Below are positions 3,381 to 11,095 of a stretch of DNA of 64,000 bases, piece by piece. The notes under the pieces are model-generated. The model did no database searches. It was given only the letters and a program-made list of their open reading frames with translations, and was not told where the DNA came from. This stretch comes from Lacibacter sp. H407 (GTDB lineage Bacteria > Bacteroidota > Bacteroidia > Chitinophagales > Chitinophagaceae), in the NCBI RefSeq assembly GCF_037892605.1, contig NZ_JBBKTU010000001.1, forward strand, positions 1,240,001-1,304,000, read 5' to 3'. Position 1 is the stretch's first letter; the number at the start of each line of letters is the position of its first letter. A program made the position numbers and the translations under genes.

Positions 3381-6300
3381 TTAATTTTTTGGCTTCGCCG
3401 GAGTTGGATAAGCCGGTGGTTTTATGTCCATCGCCGGTAACTTACTCAACTGATCCATCAATTCTTTCACTGCACGTTCCAGTTGCGGATCACGACCTTC
3501 CTGCAACGATTTTGCATCTTGTCTTACTTCAATATCCGGTGGTACACCTTCATTTTCTGCCACCCACTTTCTGTTGATGGGATCGAATACTGCATTATCC
3601 GGCGCCGTTAGTGCGCCACCATCTACCAGTGAATAATGCACCGATGATTTTACCAAGCCGCCCCATGTACGTGCACCAATCAACAAACCTGCTTTTTGCT
3701 GACGGAAGGCCCATGGAAAGAAATCACCACCGGAACCCGCCTGTTCATTGATCAATAATACTTTCGGTCCAAGAATACCGGCAGGTAATTTCATTGCCTT
3801 ACCGTTGGGCACTTCGTTGGTGAGTGATGCACGTAAAGTGCGTGTCATCAGATCAACCATATAATCATCTAATAATCCGCCGCCGTTAAAACGTTCATCA
3901 ATCACTGCACCCAGTTTATCCTGTTGTGCAAAATAGTAACGGTTGAAACTTACAAAGCCACCGCCACCTGTGTTGGGTACCCACACATAGGCCAGCTTTC
4001 CACCCGACAAACTATCAACCAACCTGCGGTTATCTTCTACCCACACACGTTGACGCAATGCATTTTCATTCCGCAAAGGTTTTACAATTTCTTTCCAATG
4101 ACCTTCGAATGCAGGTTTGCTGTTGATGTGTAACACCGTTTGTACATCCGCTGTTCCATCCAATGCTTTGTACGGATCATCACTTGCTGTTAATTCTTTT
4201 CCATTGATACCAACGAGATAATATCCGTTTTCCATTTTTATTCCGGGGCGATCAAGCGGGCTGCTTAATCCCGGATTCCAACTTTCAGTATTGTAGATGC
4301 GTGTAATTTTCCAACGTCCGTTTTCTGCTGCAAGATCTGCACCGAGTAAACCTACACTCGGGCTTTCAACTTCCGGAAAGTCGCCGCCAAAAACAAAACT
4401 ATGTCCCACACTTAATTCACCATTTACCTGATCGAGAATATAGGTAAGATCGGCTCTGTGTTTGATGTACGGAACAAGCGGTGCATACCGTTGATACACC
4501 TCGTTCCAGTTGCGGCCATGCATATTGGGATCGTAGAAATAATCACGCTCATAACGCCATGCTTCTTCAAACATTTGTTTCCACTCTTCACCACGATCGA
4601 GCTGCATGCGCAGATCGGTCTTCAGATTTTTTCCATCATTTCCATTGGGGCCGCCGGTGTTGATCACTTTCCATACACCCATTACATTGGCCAGCATTTT
4701 CTTTCCATCGGTTGATACACTTACACCATTCGCACCCGGTAAAAATTCTTTCGCTTCTTTTGATTCGAGTGTGAATTTATGTAACACACCCGGTCTGTTT
4801 GGTACACGTTCGTTGATGAACACCGTGCCTGCTGGTCCTGCAATTACATCAAAGTAATTTCGTTTTGGAATCGGCAATGGAATAGTGCGTCGTTCGATCG
4901 CATCAAAATCGATCAGCACCGCTTTATCTTCTTTTGGTTTATCCGTTGCAGGTTTCGGTTCTTCCTTTGGTTTCTCTTTTGGTTTTTCTTCCGGCTTAGC
5001 ATCTGTTTTTGCTTCCGGTTTTTGTTCGGGCTTCACTTCTTCTTCATCGCTTGTTGGTTTAAACGGCGATTGATCACCCTTGCGCAAATTGATCACATAC
5101 GCTTCATATTCCGGCCGTGCATTTTGTGAACTGGTATTGGCCCAGCCACTGCCCAATGCAACTTCGGTACTTGCTAAAAAGTAAAGATGTTTATTGTCTT
5201 TATCCCATGCCGGACAAAACGCATCTGCAAAACTGTTGGTCAACGATTGGACCGTTTTGGTTTTTACATTGTACACTTTGATACTGCGCAACATGTTGAC
5301 ACCGGTTTTACTATACGCCAACCATTGTCCATCGGGACTCCAGGTTAGACCCATTCCTCCACGTTCAATATTTACGCCACCCACATCAGCAGTAGTAATA
5401 TTGCCACTTGCCAATTCCACAATACGAACACGCAGATCATCATCAGCAAATGCAATGTATTTTCCATCGGGACTCCAGGTTGGTTCCCACGCCATTTTCG
5501 ATTCGCCAATGGAAATGCTGCGGGTTTTGCCCATGCCATCTTGTGGCGCCAGCATTAATGCATAGCCTTTTCCACCGGCATCAGAAAACCACGCTACGTC
5601 GTTACCAAGCGGCGACCACATTGGTGCCCGATCAGCCGTACCGGAACTTTGAGTGATGTTGCGTACATCACCATTCTCAGCAGGCACAGTAAAAATTTCA
5701 CCTCTTGCTTCAACAATGGCACGCTTGCCTGTTGGTGAAAGTGATGCCCACGAAATACGACGGCTCACATTTTCCCAACGTGGTGCCGACCATGGAAAAT
5801 CGCCCACTACTGTAATGTCGAGTTGTTTTTGATTGCTTCCATTCAGATCGATGCGATGCAACCAGCCTTCCCGTTCGTACACTAACGTAGAGCCATAACC
5901 GCTTAGCCATTTTACATCAGCACCGGTAAACTTTGTCAACTGTGTAAGTGTACCTGCTCCGGGCGTGTAACTCCAGATATTTGAAACGCCACCGTTGCGG
6001 TCGCTCATGAAATAAATTTTATCACCCAACCAGATTGGTTGAAGATCAGTACTGCGATCGTTGGGTAATAGTGTTTCGCTGTAGTCAGCAAGGTTGAGAA
6101 TAATAAGCGGCGTGTTTTGTCCGCCACGATACGCCCGCCATTCTACATCCCAGCGATCCATTTTATCGATCACCATTCGTTTGCCATCCGGCGAATAACT
6201 TCCATCAAAGCCCCATTGTTTGGCCAGCAATGTAGATGGACCGCCTGTTGTTGGCACTGTCCACAAACGCAAATAAGTTGATGGTGCGGTTTCCCGTTCC

Positions 6301-6713
6301 GATGCATACAGCACTTGTTTTCCATCGTTACTCCAGCCACGTGCAACAGAGGGCGATGGATGCCAGGTAAGCCTTGTTGCTTCGCCGCCTTTGCTTGGTA
6401 CAATGTAAACAGATTGACTTCCGCTGCGGTTGCTGGTGAAGGCGATCCATTTTCCATCGGGTGAAAAATGCGGATCGGTTTCTACAGCGGGTGTGCTGGT
6501 TAAACGCAGTACATTCTGTCCGTTGAGATCGCTGATCCACAGATCGGCACCATACACAAACACAATTTGTGTGGCACTGATATCGGGTTGACGTAACAGG
6601 CGTGTGCTTTGTGCCTGTAAGCTTTGTGTTGTCAACAACACAATTGAAACAATGAGTAAGAAGCATTGCCGTTTTACAAACGCAACGCATGTTTTGGATG
6701 ACAAGAAATTCAT
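3381..6713 (-). CDS. tricorn-like S41 family protease, secreted
   Basis: Encodes 1110 residues with the domain order of tricorn protease: signal peptide (ends about 35 at LQAQS), a TolB/WD40-like propeller made of repeated (S/T)PDGKWIAF-type blades (about 40-540), a Lys/Pro/Glu-rich low-complexity linker (about 560-610), a second propeller-like part, a tricorn core, a PDZ domain and a C-terminal S41 (Tsp/CtpA) protease. The probable nucleophile is Ser994 in the motif GSGGD, preceded by the NGGG-containing ERFNGGG strand. The family degrades peptides; in this phylum these enzymes are periplasmic or exported. Length matches the family. The A/G-rich region upstream holds no clear promoter, but the 22-bp dyad at 6821-6842 lies in the shared intergenic region. 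Confidence 0.9.
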   Translation of the reverse strand: MNFLSSKTCVAFVKRQCFLLIVSIVLLTTQSLQAQSTRLLRQPDISATQIVFVYGADLWISDLNGQNVLRLTSTPAVETDPHFSPDGKWIAFTSNRSGSQSVYIVPSKGGEATRLTWHPSPSVARGWSNDGKQVLYASERETAPSTYLRLWTVPTTGGPSTLLAKQWGFDGSYSPDGKRMVIDKMDRWDVEWRAYRGGQNTPLIILNLADYSETLLPNDRSTDLQPIWLGDKIYFMSDRNGGVSNIWSYTPGAGTLTQLTKFTGADVKWLSGYGSTLVYEREGWLHRIDLNGSNQKQLDITVVGDFPWSAPRWENVSRRISWASLSPTGKRAIVEARGEIFTVPAENGDVRNITQSSGTADRAPMWSPLGNDVAWFSDAGGKGYALMLAPQDGMGKTRSISIGESKMAWEPTWSPDGKYIAFADDDLRVRIVELASGNITTADVGGVNIERGGMGLTWSPDGQWLAYSKTGVNMLRSIKVYNVKTKTVQSLTNSFADAFCPAWDKDNKHLYFLASTEVALGSGWANTSSQNARPEYEAYVINLRKGDQSPFKPTSDEEEVKPEQKPEAKTDAKPEEKPKEKPKEEPKPATDKPKEDKAVLIDFDAIERRTIPLPIPKRNYFDVIAGPAGTVFINERVPNRPGVLHKFTLESKEAKEFLPGANGVSVSTDGKKMLANVMGVWKVINTGGPNGNDGKNLKTDLRMQLDRGEEWKQMFEEAWRYERDYFYDPNMHGRNWNEVYQRYAPLVPYIKHRADLTYILDQVNGELSVGHSFVFGGDFPEVESPSVGLLGADLAAENGRWKITRIYNTESWNPGLSSPLDRPGIKMENGYYLVGINGKELTASDDPYKALDGTADVQTVLHINSKPAFEGHWKEIVKPLRNENALRQRVWVEDNRRLVDSLSGGKLAYVWVPNTGGGGFVSFNRYYFAQQDKLGAVIDERFNGGGLLDDYMVDLMTRTLRASLTNEVPNGKAMKLPAGILGPKVLLINEQAGSGGDFFPWAFRQQKAGLLIGARTWGGLVKSSVHYSLVDGGALTAPDNAVFDPINRKWVAENEGVPPDIEVRQDAKSLQEGRDPQLERAVKELMDQLSKLPAMDIKPPAYPTPAKPKN

Positions 6714-6820
6714 GTAATGAAATTTGAGATGAAAAGAAAAGACAGGATACTAATATAAGTGCAAAATGGGAGGGATACAAATGAAAAAAAGGAAGTCAAT
6801 ACTTATTTTCTTCCACATTA

Positions 6821-6842
6821 GAATACCCACTAGTTGGTATTC
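6821..6842. promoter_or_regulatory. 22-bp dyad in a divergent intergenic region
   Basis: GAATACC and GGTATTC form 7-bp arms around a central ACTAGT palindrome, with one mismatched position on each side, giving an almost perfect 22-bp palindrome. It lies between the divergently transcribed protease gene (starts 6713) and lipoprotein gene (starts 6981), a usual place for a dimeric repressor or activator site. No regulator in the window is assigned to it. Confidence 0.4.
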
Positions 6843-6980
6843 ATTAAATGAAATCTACTCGCTATCTTCAATCGTTCGTGCCTGACTGTTATATTCCAAA
6901 TAGCAATAAGGTCAAAATTAGCACCAAATCAATATTTCTTTCGTTCAAATTAACCTTAGGGGTTGTCTTAAAAATTTTTT

Positions 6981-8744
6981 ATGAGAAAGTACTCAATGCT
7001 CTTTTTATTCGCTTTAATTTTTTGTACATCATGCAAAAAAAATGAAAGATCCCAAACCGATACACCCAACACAATCAATAAAATGACCGGTAGAATAGTT
7101 TGGCCAGCAAACTTAAACTTAGATACAACCGGGGTTAAAGTTTCAACATTTCATAGTGCCGCTTCCATAAAAGAAAATGGATTCATAGTAGACACGATTA
7201 ATAAGTTTTCGACAGTATTTGTAACAGATTCGAAGGGAGACGTTAAGATGATGAGATATAACTATCCCGGGCAAAAGGATAATGACATATCAATAAATTC
7301 AACTGCTTTAGCACTGATCATGAATGCACCTATAGTTACCTCCTTATCCGATGAAGGACAGCTAGCAATGATTAATAAAATACAACTTGACTCTAATTTT
7401 CCGTCCTTAGTTGATGAGATTAAAAATGCAATTACTTTGAACAAAAGTATTATTGATACCACCAACACATCGTTAATACTTGCAACCAGTAAATTGTTTG
7501 AAAGTGCTTCCAGATATAGACTTAATACTTATAGACCTGTTCCTTTAAACATAAAAACGGCCAATCCGGGTACTTTTTCCTTTGCAAATAATAACGTTTC
7601 GCATAAATATGTGATTGGTATTTACAAGAACAATGGTCGTATTGAAAAGCTTGTTGTGAATGGAACTCAATCTTTTGCGGCTTCTTTCAAAGACGTGATA
7701 GATGGTGTATTTGGAAACGGATATTCATCACCTGATTCGAAAATTTTTTCTACTGCAGAAGATGGAACACTTGAATTTAGAATACGGTCGGGTGCACCTG
7801 GTACTGATGATAACAGCACAGAATATAAAGAAGCATTTAAGGAAAATATTGTAGAGTATATTTTCACGTTGGTAAAAAGCAAAATGCCTCTTGACAGCAA
7901 GTGTACGAAAAATGCATACGATGGTATTAAATCAACGATAGAAAGCACACAAGCTTTTTCTAAAGCAAGTACACCGGCTGACTTTGCGAGTACTGCCTTG
8001 GGTTTTTGTTCGGATTTGTTTAATACCAGAGCTTCTTTATTTGAAGATTGCTCGAATTATAAAGATCCAAACTACAAAAACCCTTATTGGATTGCCGCTG
8101 GTAAATTTTTCAAATTCTTTGATAAGGTTGGCAAAGTAGGGCAAGGTTTAAATATAGGTATGCATGTTTATGATCTTTATAATTCACGAGCTGCTATTGA
8201 TACATGTTTTGAAGTCTTGGATAAAAAAGTTGGTACATGCATTTATTCTGTTGCAGGATGGTACAAGGGTACTTATACAATAGGAGTTTCGGGTGATGAC
8301 TATTGTGGTAATGACTTTGGAAAGAAAGGATCTTTTTACTTATATATTGGCGTAAATGACAAAAGAGGAGGTTTAATAAAAAGTTTCAATAGCACCTTTC
8401 CCGATTTATTAAATAATCTTAATGGACCAATCATTCGGTGGAGTGATGGCACTGTATCATGTGAACTTCAGGGAGGGATTGCAAACAGTAGTGGAGGAAT
8501 AAGTGGTATGGAGTTACCTCTTATTGTAATTAGAAACGGTAAAATGAGCACAACGAATTATGGGCGTGCAATTTATAGTGTAGATACAAATATCAGACCC
8601 GGCAAATGTCCTAGTGCAGGCATCAGCAAGTACGACTTCTATTATCCAATAAATCAGCTTTCGGGAGAATTTTTCCATGCAACTTCTCCCCCCCCAGAAC
8701 TAATGCAATCTGAAGTACAATCCATTCTAAATACCGTACAATAG
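6981..8744 (+). CDS. uncharacterised lipoprotein, 587 residues
   Basis: I do not recognise the family. The N-terminus MRKYSMLFLFALIFCTSCKK is a clear lipoprotein signal with Cys18 as the lipidation site followed by two Lys. The mature protein is soluble, contains several Cys (for example in DSKCTKN, LGFCSD, DTCFEV, VGTCIYS, DDYCGNDFG), and has a C-terminal beta-rich part that could hold disulfides. Its codons are noticeably more A/T-rich than those of the flanking genes (long runs of A and T, many AAA and ATA codons), which may mark recent acquisition. It stands alone: divergent from the tricorn-like gene and convergent with the regulator downstream. No clear terminator follows. Confidence 0.75.
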   Translation: MRKYSMLFLFALIFCTSCKKNERSQTDTPNTINKMTGRIVWPANLNLDTTGVKVSTFHSAASIKENGFIVDTINKFSTVFVTDSKGDVKMMRYNYPGQKDNDISINSTALALIMNAPIVTSLSDEGQLAMINKIQLDSNFPSLVDEIKNAITLNKSIIDTTNTSLILATSKLFESASRYRLNTYRPVPLNIKTANPGTFSFANNNVSHKYVIGIYKNNGRIEKLVVNGTQSFAASFKDVIDGVFGNGYSSPDSKIFSTAEDGTLEFRIRSGAPGTDDNSTEYKEAFKENIVEYIFTLVKSKMPLDSKCTKNAYDGIKSTIESTQAFSKASTPADFASTALGFCSDLFNTRASLFEDCSNYKDPNYKNPYWIAAGKFFKFFDKVGKVGQGLNIGMHVYDLYNSRAAIDTCFEVLDKKVGTCIYSVAGWYKGTYTIGVSGDDYCGNDFGKKGSFYLYIGVNDKRGGLIKSFNSTFPDLLNNLNGPIIRWSDGTVSCELQGGIANSSGGISGMELPLIVIRNGKMSTTNYGRAIYSVDTNIRPGKCPSAGISKYDFYYPINQLSGEFFHATSPPPELMQSEVQSILNTVQ

Positions 8745-8875
8745 TCATCTTATGCGGAGTTGATAATTCATTTCTTCTCAGCAATGATCCCATAAATGCA
8801 GATGATTAACTGCAACAAGCGAGGGGGCATTTTGCTTAGAAAAAAAGTGCATGAAGAAAATTGCATTCTCCCACT

Positions 8876-9766
8876 TCAACTCTTCTCTTCCTCAATCTGC
8901 AACTTATATCCCTTGCCATGAATACTGATAATTTTTACAGCGGTATCCTGTTCTAACTTCTTCCGCAGTTTCGACATAAATACATCGAGGCTGCGGCCCA
9001 CAATCACACCTTCATCTTCCCACACTTCTTTTTGCAACCTGTTACGATCAATGATCTGGTTAGGTGCCGCTGCAAGGATGCCGAGCAACTTCGATTCTTT
9101 ACTGGTTAAAATAATTTCTTCGCTGCCAATCACCAATCGTTGTGTTTGTTCATAAAACAAATAATTGCCGATTCGGAATGGTTGATTGTTAGTACCGGTT
9201 GTGATTGATTCTATCGTTTCGTTCGTTGCTGTAGATTGCTGTTTGATGCGCCATGCAATAATGACTGCACTGAGCAATAGCAACACACCGGCACCCATTA
9301 ACCAGGTGGCGGCACGGAATGGTTTGTCACGAAAACTGATGAGAATACTGTAAGGCTTGGCCGGCTGGATGCGGCCGACACAGGGTACAATGTTTTCCTG
9401 CTCACTGCCAAGTATGGCATAACCGAAAATTACTTTATCCGTTTGCGGTTCGGTAACCTGTACAATATAATTGCCGGGGAGCTGGTTGCGGCTGATGATG
9501 CGACCAATGATCTTCACCAGCGAATCGGGCTTAAATGAAAAACTGCTGCGAAAAGGAATTTGAAATTCGTTTGCTGAAATACGGTTGATGGGCGATACTT
9601 GTGTGGTACTGTCGTTGCTGTACAATAAAATGCTGTGGGCGATCTGTCGCATCACGATCATTTCTTTGGCCGAATCAAATTCGGTTTTGCTGGCTTGTTT
9701 TGTTACAAAACCAACCAACAGCAACAGTGCGCCTGCCACAACCAACGACAGTATCTTCCCTTTCAT
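8876..9766 (-). CDS. membrane-bound winged-helix transcriptional regulator
   Basis: Encodes 296 residues if translation starts at the ATG at 9766; an upstream extension to 9862 would spoil the N-terminal membrane segment. Layout: transmembrane helix about 5-22, a periplasmic domain of about 130 residues, second helix about 153-173, Thr/Asn-rich linker, and a C-terminal OmpR/ToxR-type winged helix (about 196-291; motif LTSKESKLLGIL, recognition part GRSLDVFMSKLRKKL, wing IISIHGKGYKL). This is ToxR-like but inverted, with the DNA-binding domain at the C-terminus. It should bind DNA while anchored in the inner membrane and respond to a periplasmic cue. It is divergent from the propeller lipoprotein at 9998, and the phased TTTAC repeats between them are the obvious candidate target. 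Confidence 0.8.
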   Translation of the reverse strand: MKGKILSLVVAGALLLLVGFVTKQASKTEFDSAKEMIVMRQIAHSILLYSNDSTTQVSPINRISANEFQIPFRSSFSFKPDSLVKIIGRIISRNQLPGNYIVQVTEPQTDKVIFGYAILGSEQENIVPCVGRIQPAKPYSILISFRDKPFRAATWLMGAGVLLLLSAVIIAWRIKQQSTATNETIESITTGTNNQPFRIGNYLFYEQTQRLVIGSEEIILTSKESKLLGILAAAPNQIIDRNRLQKEVWEDEGVIVGRSLDVFMSKLRKKLEQDTAVKIISIHGKGYKLQIEEEKS

Positions 9767-9883: not shown

Positions 9884-9933
9884 GTTTACAAAGGTTTTAC
9901 ATCCGTTTACAATCTATTTACAGGGGTTTTACC
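9884..9933 (+). promoter_or_regulatory. array of five helically phased TTTAC repeats
   Basis: TTTACA occurs at 9885, 9896, 9906 and 9917, and TTTACC at 9928, so the starts are 11, 10, 11 and 11 bp apart. All copies have the same orientation and so face the same side of the helix. OmpR/PhoB-type winged helices bind tandem half-sites with this 10-11 bp period. The array ends about 22 bp before a -7-like TACTTTAG (9955-9962), placing the last copy at the -33 position of a promoter for the propeller gene at 9998. Confidence 0.6.
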
Positions 9934-9961
9934 GGTTAAGCCTTGCCGGCAGTGTACTTTA

Positions 9962-9988
9962 GTGAAACAGCCGGCAATCCGGTTTCAC
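9962..9988 (+). promoter_or_regulatory. 5' leader hairpin before the propeller lipoprotein
   Basis: GTGAAA pairs with TTTCAC and, inside a 3-nt bulge, CCGG pairs with CCGG around a CAAT loop. The hairpin ends 9 nt before the ATG at 9998, so in the transcript it would lie just upstream of the ribosome binding area. Alternatively the GTGAAAC/GTTTCAC arms are a protein-binding dyad. Confidence 0.35.
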
Positions 9989-9997
9989 ACAAACAAC

Positions 9998-11095
9998 ATG
10001 TATATGAAATACTTTCCCTTGTTACTATTCGCTTTGGTCATCAGCTCTTGCAACGGACAAAACAATCCAAACGAAGCGGCCATCCTGAGTTCCATCACCG
10101 AATCGATCAGTAATGGTCAGCCTCAAACAGTGCCGAAAGTGCCGGTGTATAATTTCTTATCCGTGAAGTTGATCACGGCACCCGATCCTTCGTTGCAGGT
10201 AAGTGAATACGTCCGTTGTATGATCCAGGATAAAAAAGGCAATATCTGGTTTGGTACCAACAACGAGGGCGTGTGCCGTTATGATGGCGAACGCTTTTTC
10301 TACTATGCTGAGAAAGACGGGCTTGCCGGAAATGCAGTGCGACGGATACTGGAAGATAAAAAAGGAAATATCTGGCTGGCCACCAACAATGGCGTGACGA
10401 TGTATAACGGAACAACATTTATCCGATTCAGCGAAGCAGATGGCCTGAGTTCAAACGATACCTGGAGTATGTTGCTCGACAGTAAAGATCAACTTTGGGT
10501 GGGAACGATGGAAGGTGTTTGTGTGTACAACGGAACAAGCTTTACAAAAGTGGATGTGCCGCTTGTGAGTAACAGCACAAGAGCGTCACGCTTTTCAACC
10601 AAACTGGTTTGGAGTATGTATGAAGACAAGAGCGGTGCTATCTGGTTTGGTACCGATGGTGATGGTGTAAAAAAATTCGATGGCAAAACCTTTACCAACT
10701 ATTCCGAAGCGGATGGATTGGCTGGTAACAATGTGTTATCCATTACCGCCGATAAAGCCGGCAATCTTTGGTTTGGAACATGGGGCAAGGGTGTAAGTCG
10801 TTTCACTGCCAACGGATTTCAGAATTTCAGTGATAAGAACGGACTGGCAAGTAACGATGTGTGGAGTATGTTGGTGGACAATCAGGGAAATTTATGGATG
10901 GGCACATTGGGTGGCGGCATCAGCAAATTCAACGGCGCCACTTTTACAACCTACACCGAACAGCAGGGCCGCACCAAAAATCATGTGCAAAGCATTTTGC
11001 AAACAAGAAATGGTGAAATGTGGTTTGGTTTTTCAGGTGGTGTGTTTCGGTTGAGGGAATCGACGCTGGTTAATTTTATAAAAGAAGGTTGTTAG
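9998..11095 (+). CDS. beta-propeller lipoprotein (two-component regulator propeller repeats)
   Basis: Starts at the ATG at 9998 (or 10004): MYMKYFPLLLFALVISSC is a lipoprotein signal peptide, while upstream codons cover the control region. The mature protein is almost wholly Reg_prop repeats, each with the signature DxxGNIWFGTxxxGVxxYDG followed by FxxYxxxDGLxxNxV; about seven blades are visible. Such propellers are normally the periplasmic sensor half of hybrid two-component systems in Bacteroidota, but here no histidine kinase, Y_Y_Y domain or transmembrane helix follows, so it is a free sensor or binding lipoprotein. It is divergent from the membrane winged-helix regulator, which suggests the two form one signalling unit; this is inference from position. 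Confidence 0.85.
   Translation: MYMKYFPLLLFALVISSCNGQNNPNEAAILSSITESISNGQPQTVPKVPVYNFLSVKLITAPDPSLQVSEYVRCMIQDKKGNIWFGTNNEGVCRYDGERFFYYAEKDGLAGNAVRRILEDKKGNIWLATNNGVTMYNGTTFIRFSEADGLSSNDTWSMLLDSKDQLWVGTMEGVCVYNGTSFTKVDVPLVSNSTRASRFSTKLVWSMYEDKSGAIWFGTDGDGVKKFDGKTFTNYSEADGLAGNNVLSITADKAGNLWFGTWGKGVSRFTANGFQNFSDKNGLASNDVWSMLVDNQGNLWMGTLGGGISKFNGATFTTYTEQQGRTKNHVQSILQTRNGEMWFGFSGGVFRLRESTLVNFIKEGC

Follow-up and report, generated by a model that had tools for sequence, protein, structure and literature searches.

The five TTTAC words at 9885-9932 in the 64,000-nucleotide stretch of Lacibacter sp. H407 DNA analysed here (hereafter the window) are, on the strength of sequence comparisons, a genuine control site that recurs across Bacteroidota beside the gene for a membrane-spanning DNA-binding protein, and they most likely form the operator of the divergent gene at 8876-9766. 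The link between array and regulator is well supported by comparison across genomes, the regulator itself being most likely a one-component activator of the ToxR type whose activity depends on thiol chemistry in the periplasm. We posit that it binds the array head to tail, activates the neighbouring propeller gene and uses Cys129 of its periplasmic domain as a thiol switch, a reading to which we assign a probability of about 0.8; the parts that we infer are binding, the sign of the effect (activation, not repression) and the thiol step. The features concerned, in window coordinates, are the following.

9885-9932, plus strand: putative operator array of five TTTAC units, reading toward the propeller gene
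8876-9766, minus strand: membrane-anchored winged-helix regulator of 296 aa (predicted transmembrane segment 2-25, periplasmic part 29-145, transmembrane segment 152-180, Trans_reg_C 216-289)
9323-9688, minus strand: code for the predicted periplasmic domain (residues 27-148), with no Pfam family, PDB sequence match or clear PDB fold match
9380-9382, minus strand: codon of Cys129, the sole cysteine of the window regulator's periplasmic domain
9955-9962, plus strand: candidate -7 element TACTTTAG, an imperfect TAnnTTTG match 27 bp from the last TTTAC start
9998-11095, plus strand: exported Reg_prop beta-propeller (Pfam) with a lipoprotein-like start (VISSC), the adjacent predicted target
11087-11092, plus strand: C-terminal Gly-Cys codons of the propeller (FIKEGC-stop), from the sequence

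The first-pass annotation had described five TTTAC words in one orientation, at steps of 10-11 bp and placed between divergent genes, and both the words and their setting are borne out. The units start at 9885, 9896, 9906, 9917 and 9928 on the plus strand (steps of 11, 10, 11 and 11 bp), between the genes at 8876-9766 (minus strand) and 9998-11095 (plus strand). A three-unit pattern has three matches in the window, all within the array, against 0.00 expected from 100 dinucleotide shuffles, and 20,000 shuffled versions of the 300-bp region preceding the regulator gave chains of at most two units, so that the notion of such arrays being equally common in random intergenic sequence fails. The operator arrays of PhoB, PhoP and OmpR (pho box, PhoP boxes) consist of direct repeats about one helical turn apart that run in one direction and end near the core promoter, and the window array shares this layout, with at least three direct repeats at helical spacing before a promoter that is recognised by consensus only. 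The fold of the presumed binding protein, a PhoB-class winged helix, is also alike; the TTTAC(A) word, the Bacteroidota -7 box, a membrane-anchored regulator that lacks a receiver and a common variant with 9+12 bp steps set the present system apart.

The winged helix of the regulator is evident from a match to Trans_reg_C (PF00486) over residues 216-289, at 66.8 bits against a gathering score of 26.2. An AlphaFold2 model (mean pLDDT 88.9) comprises a helix at 2-25, a compact domain at 29-145, a second helix at 152-180 and a winged helix at 197-291, with a pTM of 0.54 that makes the relative placement of the domains untrustworthy. The modelled winged helix superimposes on those of SaeR (Z 14.5, 99 aligned residues, 2.1 Å), ToxR (Z 14.1, 98 residues, 2.1 Å) and PhoB (Z 12.8, 102 residues, 2.6 Å), and the CadC DNA-binding domain is also among the structure matches within this Z range of 12.8-14.5. 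No receiver domain was found: Pfam finds Trans_reg_C alone, residues 1-180 are predicted to form a helix-domain-helix unit, and the NCBIfam response-regulator models, among the 25 of 35 matches listed, begin no earlier than residue 165, with scores far under cut-off. The first-pass view of a PhoB/OmpR-type regulator thus needs correction, in that the protein is predicted to be a one-component regulator anchored in the membrane and to have no receiver. A winged helix, a membrane segment and a periplasmic domain in one chain are the layout of ToxR and CadC, and the predicted membrane architecture, with transmembrane segments taken from the helices of the model, agrees with it. ToxR and CadC carry an N-terminal winged helix and a single transmembrane segment, whereas here the domain order is reversed, with the winged helix C-terminal, two hydrophobic helices predicted to span the membrane, and a periplasmic domain of no Pfam family and no clear fold match in the PDB. 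The array is thus of the PhoB-box kind, and the regulator appears to work like ToxR or CadC but to break their domain order. Its nearest named relatives among the matches listed are from Lacibacter cauensis and L. luteus (67% identity) and a Chitinophagaceae MAG (65%).

Among 294 genomes of the family Chitinophagaceae, 80 have a homologue of the regulator (E <= 1e-25). Upstream regions were collected from the family genomes and from named organisms among the best 80 of 563 confirmed matches, including Chitinophaga, Mucilaginibacter, Pedobacter, Flavobacterium, Chryseobacterium, Algoriphagus, Emticicia and others. Fifty of the first 88 distinct regions carry at least three exact 10/11-bp units on the strand reading away from the regulator, compared with 0 of 88 on the opposite strand and 0 of 8800 shuffles. 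A relaxed test that admits two spacing forms found an array upstream of 134 of 152 distinct regulators, again reading away from the regulator (reverse strand, 0 of 152; Markov-resampled sequences, 2 of 3040). In a phylum-wide sample of 296 genomes, a profile of the periplasmic domain recovered it in 22, which indicates that the system is scattered rather than universal.

The second array form, TTTACAAAGTTTACATTTTTATTTACA, has steps of 9+12 bp and is about as common as the first: 69 of the 152 loci show 9/12 spacing, 57 show 10/11, eight are mixed and 18 have no array. The 10-11 bp spacing put forward in the first-pass annotation therefore holds in the window but not as the general form of the array, and we gave up the idea that strict 10/11 spacing is universal, given that 38 of the 88 first-set loci are without three strict units and 24 of these 38 fit 9+12 bp. 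Spacing class is associated with the type of recognition helix in the regulator. Beside regulators of the ISRN type there are 20 arrays with 10/11 spacing, three mixed arrays and none with 9/12 spacing; beside those of the GRSLD type there are 34, five and 69, respectively, with 18 loci lacking an array (p 6e-9, which, like the other p values given here, overstates independence because the loci are related by descent).

These comparisons bear on which protein reads the array. PhoB/OmpR-type regulators bind repeats of such layout, and the winged helix of the regulator has matches (E <= 0.001) at five further places in the genome, both of which would suit an ordinary response regulator acting at the array with the neighbouring gene there by coincidence. 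We consider this very improbable because the array tracks the membrane-anchored gene (at the 134 of 152 loci counted above) and its spacing follows the recognition helix of that protein, and because in three target-bearing genomes where the periplasmic domain was not found (G143, G174 and G213) no array was found before the target gene. A purely structural origin of the words is harder still to credit: TTT phased at 10-11 bp can curve DNA, and TTT does recur here every 10-11 bp, so that the T-tracts might bend the DNA by themselves with no specific protein involved, but the AC(A) that follows TTT is conserved too, a second form with 9+12 bp steps exists, and the array goes with one particular regulator gene.

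At the level of whole genomes, the three-unit pattern was found in 50 of 80 family genomes with the regulator and in 12 of 214 without it (Fisher p 3.8e-24; hand count, among the matches listed). A backwards control pattern gave 30 matches in 24 of the 294 family genomes (hand count), a frequency at which the 12 matches in regulator-less genomes amount to background, as do some of the 50; at least four of the latter genomes (G094, G131, G225 and G314) match the pattern only away from the regulator. Thirty-nine chains at 37 loci were picked as seemingly not adjoining a regulator. Nine of the ten four-unit chains among them precede an exported gene that by eye resembles a target family; on inspection, L236 adjoins a regulator relative, two chains (L246) adjoin a regulator fragment and L237 lies about 2 kb from a regulator, and no target was found within 450 bp of the four-unit chain at L242. 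Among the 29 three-unit chains, two stand before genes with a TAGGTTTG box that encode exported proteins of a family named beta-lactamase-like by eye, and one is the cut edge of a regulator-adjacent array. Three-unit matches in general were not accepted as sites, as the remaining 26, many of them within ORFs, precede no target-like gene.

A -7-like element about 22 bp past the array, as claimed at first pass, is present as TACTTTAG, which begins 22 bp past the end of the last TTTAC unit (9932) and departs from TAnnTTTG by having one base too few between TA and TTT. TAnnTTTG is the sigma A -7 consensus of Flavobacterium psychrophilum according to an excerpt of PMC9723704. In the 50 strict arrays the TAnnTTT core starts either 26/27 bp (13 arrays) or 37/38 bp (25 arrays) after the start of the last unit, with no overlap between the two groups. 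It is absent from both registers in the other 12, including the window and its near relatives L020, L021 and L022, in all four of which TA stands at 27 bp and the box is one base short or altered; L020 and L022 have TAATTTAG at the position equivalent to TACTTTAG. Arrays of the 9/12 form have the core at 37/38 bp in 34 of 69 cases. A sigma-70 style promoter scan was uninformative, with five promoters found and 5.2 expected. Two positions one helical turn apart are the register expected of an activator on one face of the DNA. Were the same regulator instead to repress, its multimers on the array blocking the divergent promoters, the proximity of the array to the regulator gene would be readily accommodated, as it often lies only about 40-55 bp from the estimated start codon, a distance at which binding could also shut the regulator's own promoter; a repressor needs no helical phase, however, and the -7 core keeps to one of its two registers in 38 of the 50 strict arrays, which makes repression improbable in our judgement.

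We thus favour activation, in which the regulator would be anchored in the inner membrane and expose its winged helix to the cytoplasm. Several copies would bind the TTTAC units head to tail along one face of the DNA, and the bound row, in a fixed helical register with the -7 box, would contact RNA polymerase and turn on the propeller gene. The PhoB/OmpR-type row in contact with polymerase that had been proposed fits the sequence tests, in that the array tracks the regulator, the spacing tracks the recognition helix and the register is kept in most strict arrays; binding and activation are its conditional steps.

The window occupies positions 1240001-1304000 of contig 1 in a genome of 4.87 Mb. 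A search of the whole genome for the three-unit pattern, suggested at first pass, returned four places, so that the array is not unique. Three of these, all on contig 1, are arrays of four to five units before exported propellers that end in Gly-Cys: the window array (tail KEGC) and two four-unit arrays at distant genes, at 188072 (KGGC) and 1210943 (NRGC). The two BNR propellers behind the distant arrays are 55% identical and were the sole two matches of that search in the genome. Since the genome has one regulator with this periplasmic domain, that protein would be the natural reader of all three arrays and may thus serve the two other exported propeller genes as well as its neighbour. The fourth place, on contig 2 at 77105-77130 (L011:5106-5131, minus strand), has three units, the last 58 bp before a gene for a 591-aa lipoprotein-like product without a Gly-Cys tail; it belongs to the 26 three-unit chains set aside above and may be either chance or a further target. 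In hybrid two-component systems of Bacteroidota the Reg_prop propeller is associated with a transcription regulator; here, in contrast, there is no kinase, and the propeller is a separate, exported protein that is itself the predicted target. Some neighbours of the distant genes may be mentioned. Behind the array-driven BNR propeller gene at L010:5051-6130 (contig 1, about 1211-1215 kb) lies a long gene of the same strand (6251-9535), possibly in one operon with it, whose product by eye resembles the tricorn-like protease at 3381-6713 of the window. A thioredoxin-like ORF with WCGPCK (by eye) follows the other distant target (L009:6405-6803, contig 1, about 189 kb) and touches the thiol theme.

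Across genomes the predicted targets are exported proteins of several folds, many of which share the terminal cysteine. A gene pointing away from the regulator lies within reach at 138 of 152 loci (none in 14), and 81 of these 138 first genes, which were counted from 75 aa upward and some of which may be spurious ORFs, encode a Cys end, 71 of them a Gly-Cys end; some gene of the run ends in Cys at 90 loci. These tail counts cover loci without a detected array too. Among 353 distinct ORFs of at least 150 aa in a set of the same loci that are unrelated to first genes or regulators, three end in Cys and one in Gly-Cys; with target homologues left in, which were removed for this count, the figure is 17 of 460. 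When the products are grouped by sequence (206 proteins, at most three from each run), a terminal Cys is present in 49 of 50 members of a 180-aa family (36 of the 49 have no other cysteine), in 26 of 27 BNR propellers, in 19 of 75 members of a merged Reg_prop/YceI/190-aa cluster and in 0 of 9 members of the beta-lactamase-like cluster. Two singletons also end in Cys, a protein with a TonB_C-like end at L029 (E 0.00058, below cut-off) and a small lipoprotein-like protein at L194, a locus without an array by the relaxed test. Representatives of the target clusters belong to unrelated Pfam families or to none, so that common descent does not explain the shared tail. The thiol arms of SoxY and DsrC bear a cysteine on a short C-terminal tail; the present tails differ from them in that Cys is the very last residue, mostly after Gly, and occurs on several exported folds.

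Two further observations concern the composition of these clusters. A 190-aa exported family (FSGEWKSKESISMGGN) adjoins targets at L084, L091 and other loci; its L084 member has no Pfam match, and the members inspected do not end in Cys. The 522-aa first-gene products at L080 and L206 seem by eye to join Reg_prop and YceI-type regions in one chain and so to connect two target families.

A search that started from the target found the 180-aa exported protein in 33 of 195 family genomes. Of 30 loci, 19 have a 9/12-type array within 400 bp upstream, among them 7 of the 13 loci without a regulator in the stretch. Three of the other six lie about 1.4 to 1.8 kb from a regulator, probably inside a target operon, and the other three are those of G143, G174 and G213. 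The Gly-Cys tail is kept at all 30 loci, these three genomes included, which implies that the tail either has a use beyond the regulator or outlives it, and weakens the idea that the tail requires the regulator.

The periplasmic domain of the regulator, modelled alone, has a mean pLDDT of 93.5. No match was found among PDB sequences and no family in Pfam; matches of single alignment members to 12 Pfam families, each from one member and none better than E 0.0085, were put down to chance. Against PDB folds the best Foldseek E was 0.083, and the best VIA match, to AlaX (Z 6.6, 93 aligned residues, 3.5 Å), is below the tool's informative level; AlaX and the Hsp90 N-domain were not taken as relatives (Z < 8). 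None of the 168 aligned regulators (152 once duplicates are removed) lacks Cys129, which usually lies within [PA]CxGR. Two further periplasmic cysteines are both present in 117 of the 152, both absent in 31 and present singly in four, and because these two largely co-occur the number of periplasmic cysteines is odd in 149 of 152. Judging from this pattern, the extra pair probably forms a disulfide and leaves Cys129 free in the monomer. Presence of the extra pair was tested for association with the tail cysteine of the target, and none was found (p 0.21).

In the reading that we prefer, the periplasmic thiol state or occupancy would set the output of the regulator, with the probably unpaired Cys129 as the switch, by way of a disulfide between two regulators, a mixed disulfide with the terminal thiol of an exported product, or reaction with a small molecule. 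Redox roles of periplasmic cysteines are described for ToxR/CadC-type regulators in excerpts of several papers (PMC6242745, PMC5430869, PMC8359183, PMC7265457, PMC3483227, PMC3096576), and the ToxR cysteines form inter- and intramolecular disulfides according to an excerpt of one of them (PMC6242745), a precedent for a disulfide between regulators. The most far-reaching version would be a form of envelope signalling in which an activator with a new periplasmic domain and an obligate free thiol controls, through the array, exported Gly-Cys-tagged proteins with unrelated folds whose tail thiols transiently form mixed disulfides with Cys129. If so, the cell would monitor the thiol-tagged proteins that it makes, by their amount, their export or their redox state. 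We regard this version as unlikely. Cys129 is invariant also where the targets have no tail, and together with the tails in genomes without a detected regulator this means that the two thiols need not be partners; those tails also lead us to weight regulator-regulator or other chemistry above a model built on product tails. That Cys129 acts through regulator-regulator disulfides or small-molecule chemistry, with the Gly-Cys tails serving sorting, sulfur or metal chemistry, comes close to an even chance in our estimation. The persistence of tails in 3 of 3 examined loci from genomes without a detected regulator domain and the retention of Cys129 beside tail-less targets speak for such a separation, but the occurrence of tails on Pfam-unrelated folds that share the regulator suggests a common partner or a common chemistry.

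Literature searches of open-licence PMC papers, covering titles and the starts of abstracts, found no description of the array, the periplasmic domain or the tail among the entries listed. The operator motif lets a regulon be read directly from Bacteroidota genomes, and it connects a class of membrane-bound one-component regulators with exported proteins of unknown function, namely propellers, YceI-like proteins and unclassified ones. The shared Gly-Cys tail leads to a direct prediction on periplasmic thiol chemistry, for which the 180-residue family, with its last residue as the sole cysteine in most Cys-ending members, offers a simple handle.

Two gene neighbourhoods may be added. In the window, the gene at 6981-8744 (plus strand) encodes a protein of 587 aa that starts like a lipoprotein (TSCKK) and has no match in Pfam at E 0.01. 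The target side of L164 and L194 (Agaribacillus aureus and a Cyclobacteriaceae MAG) holds a permease-like gene of about 815 aa, which at L194 comes behind the small Gly-Cys-ending protein.
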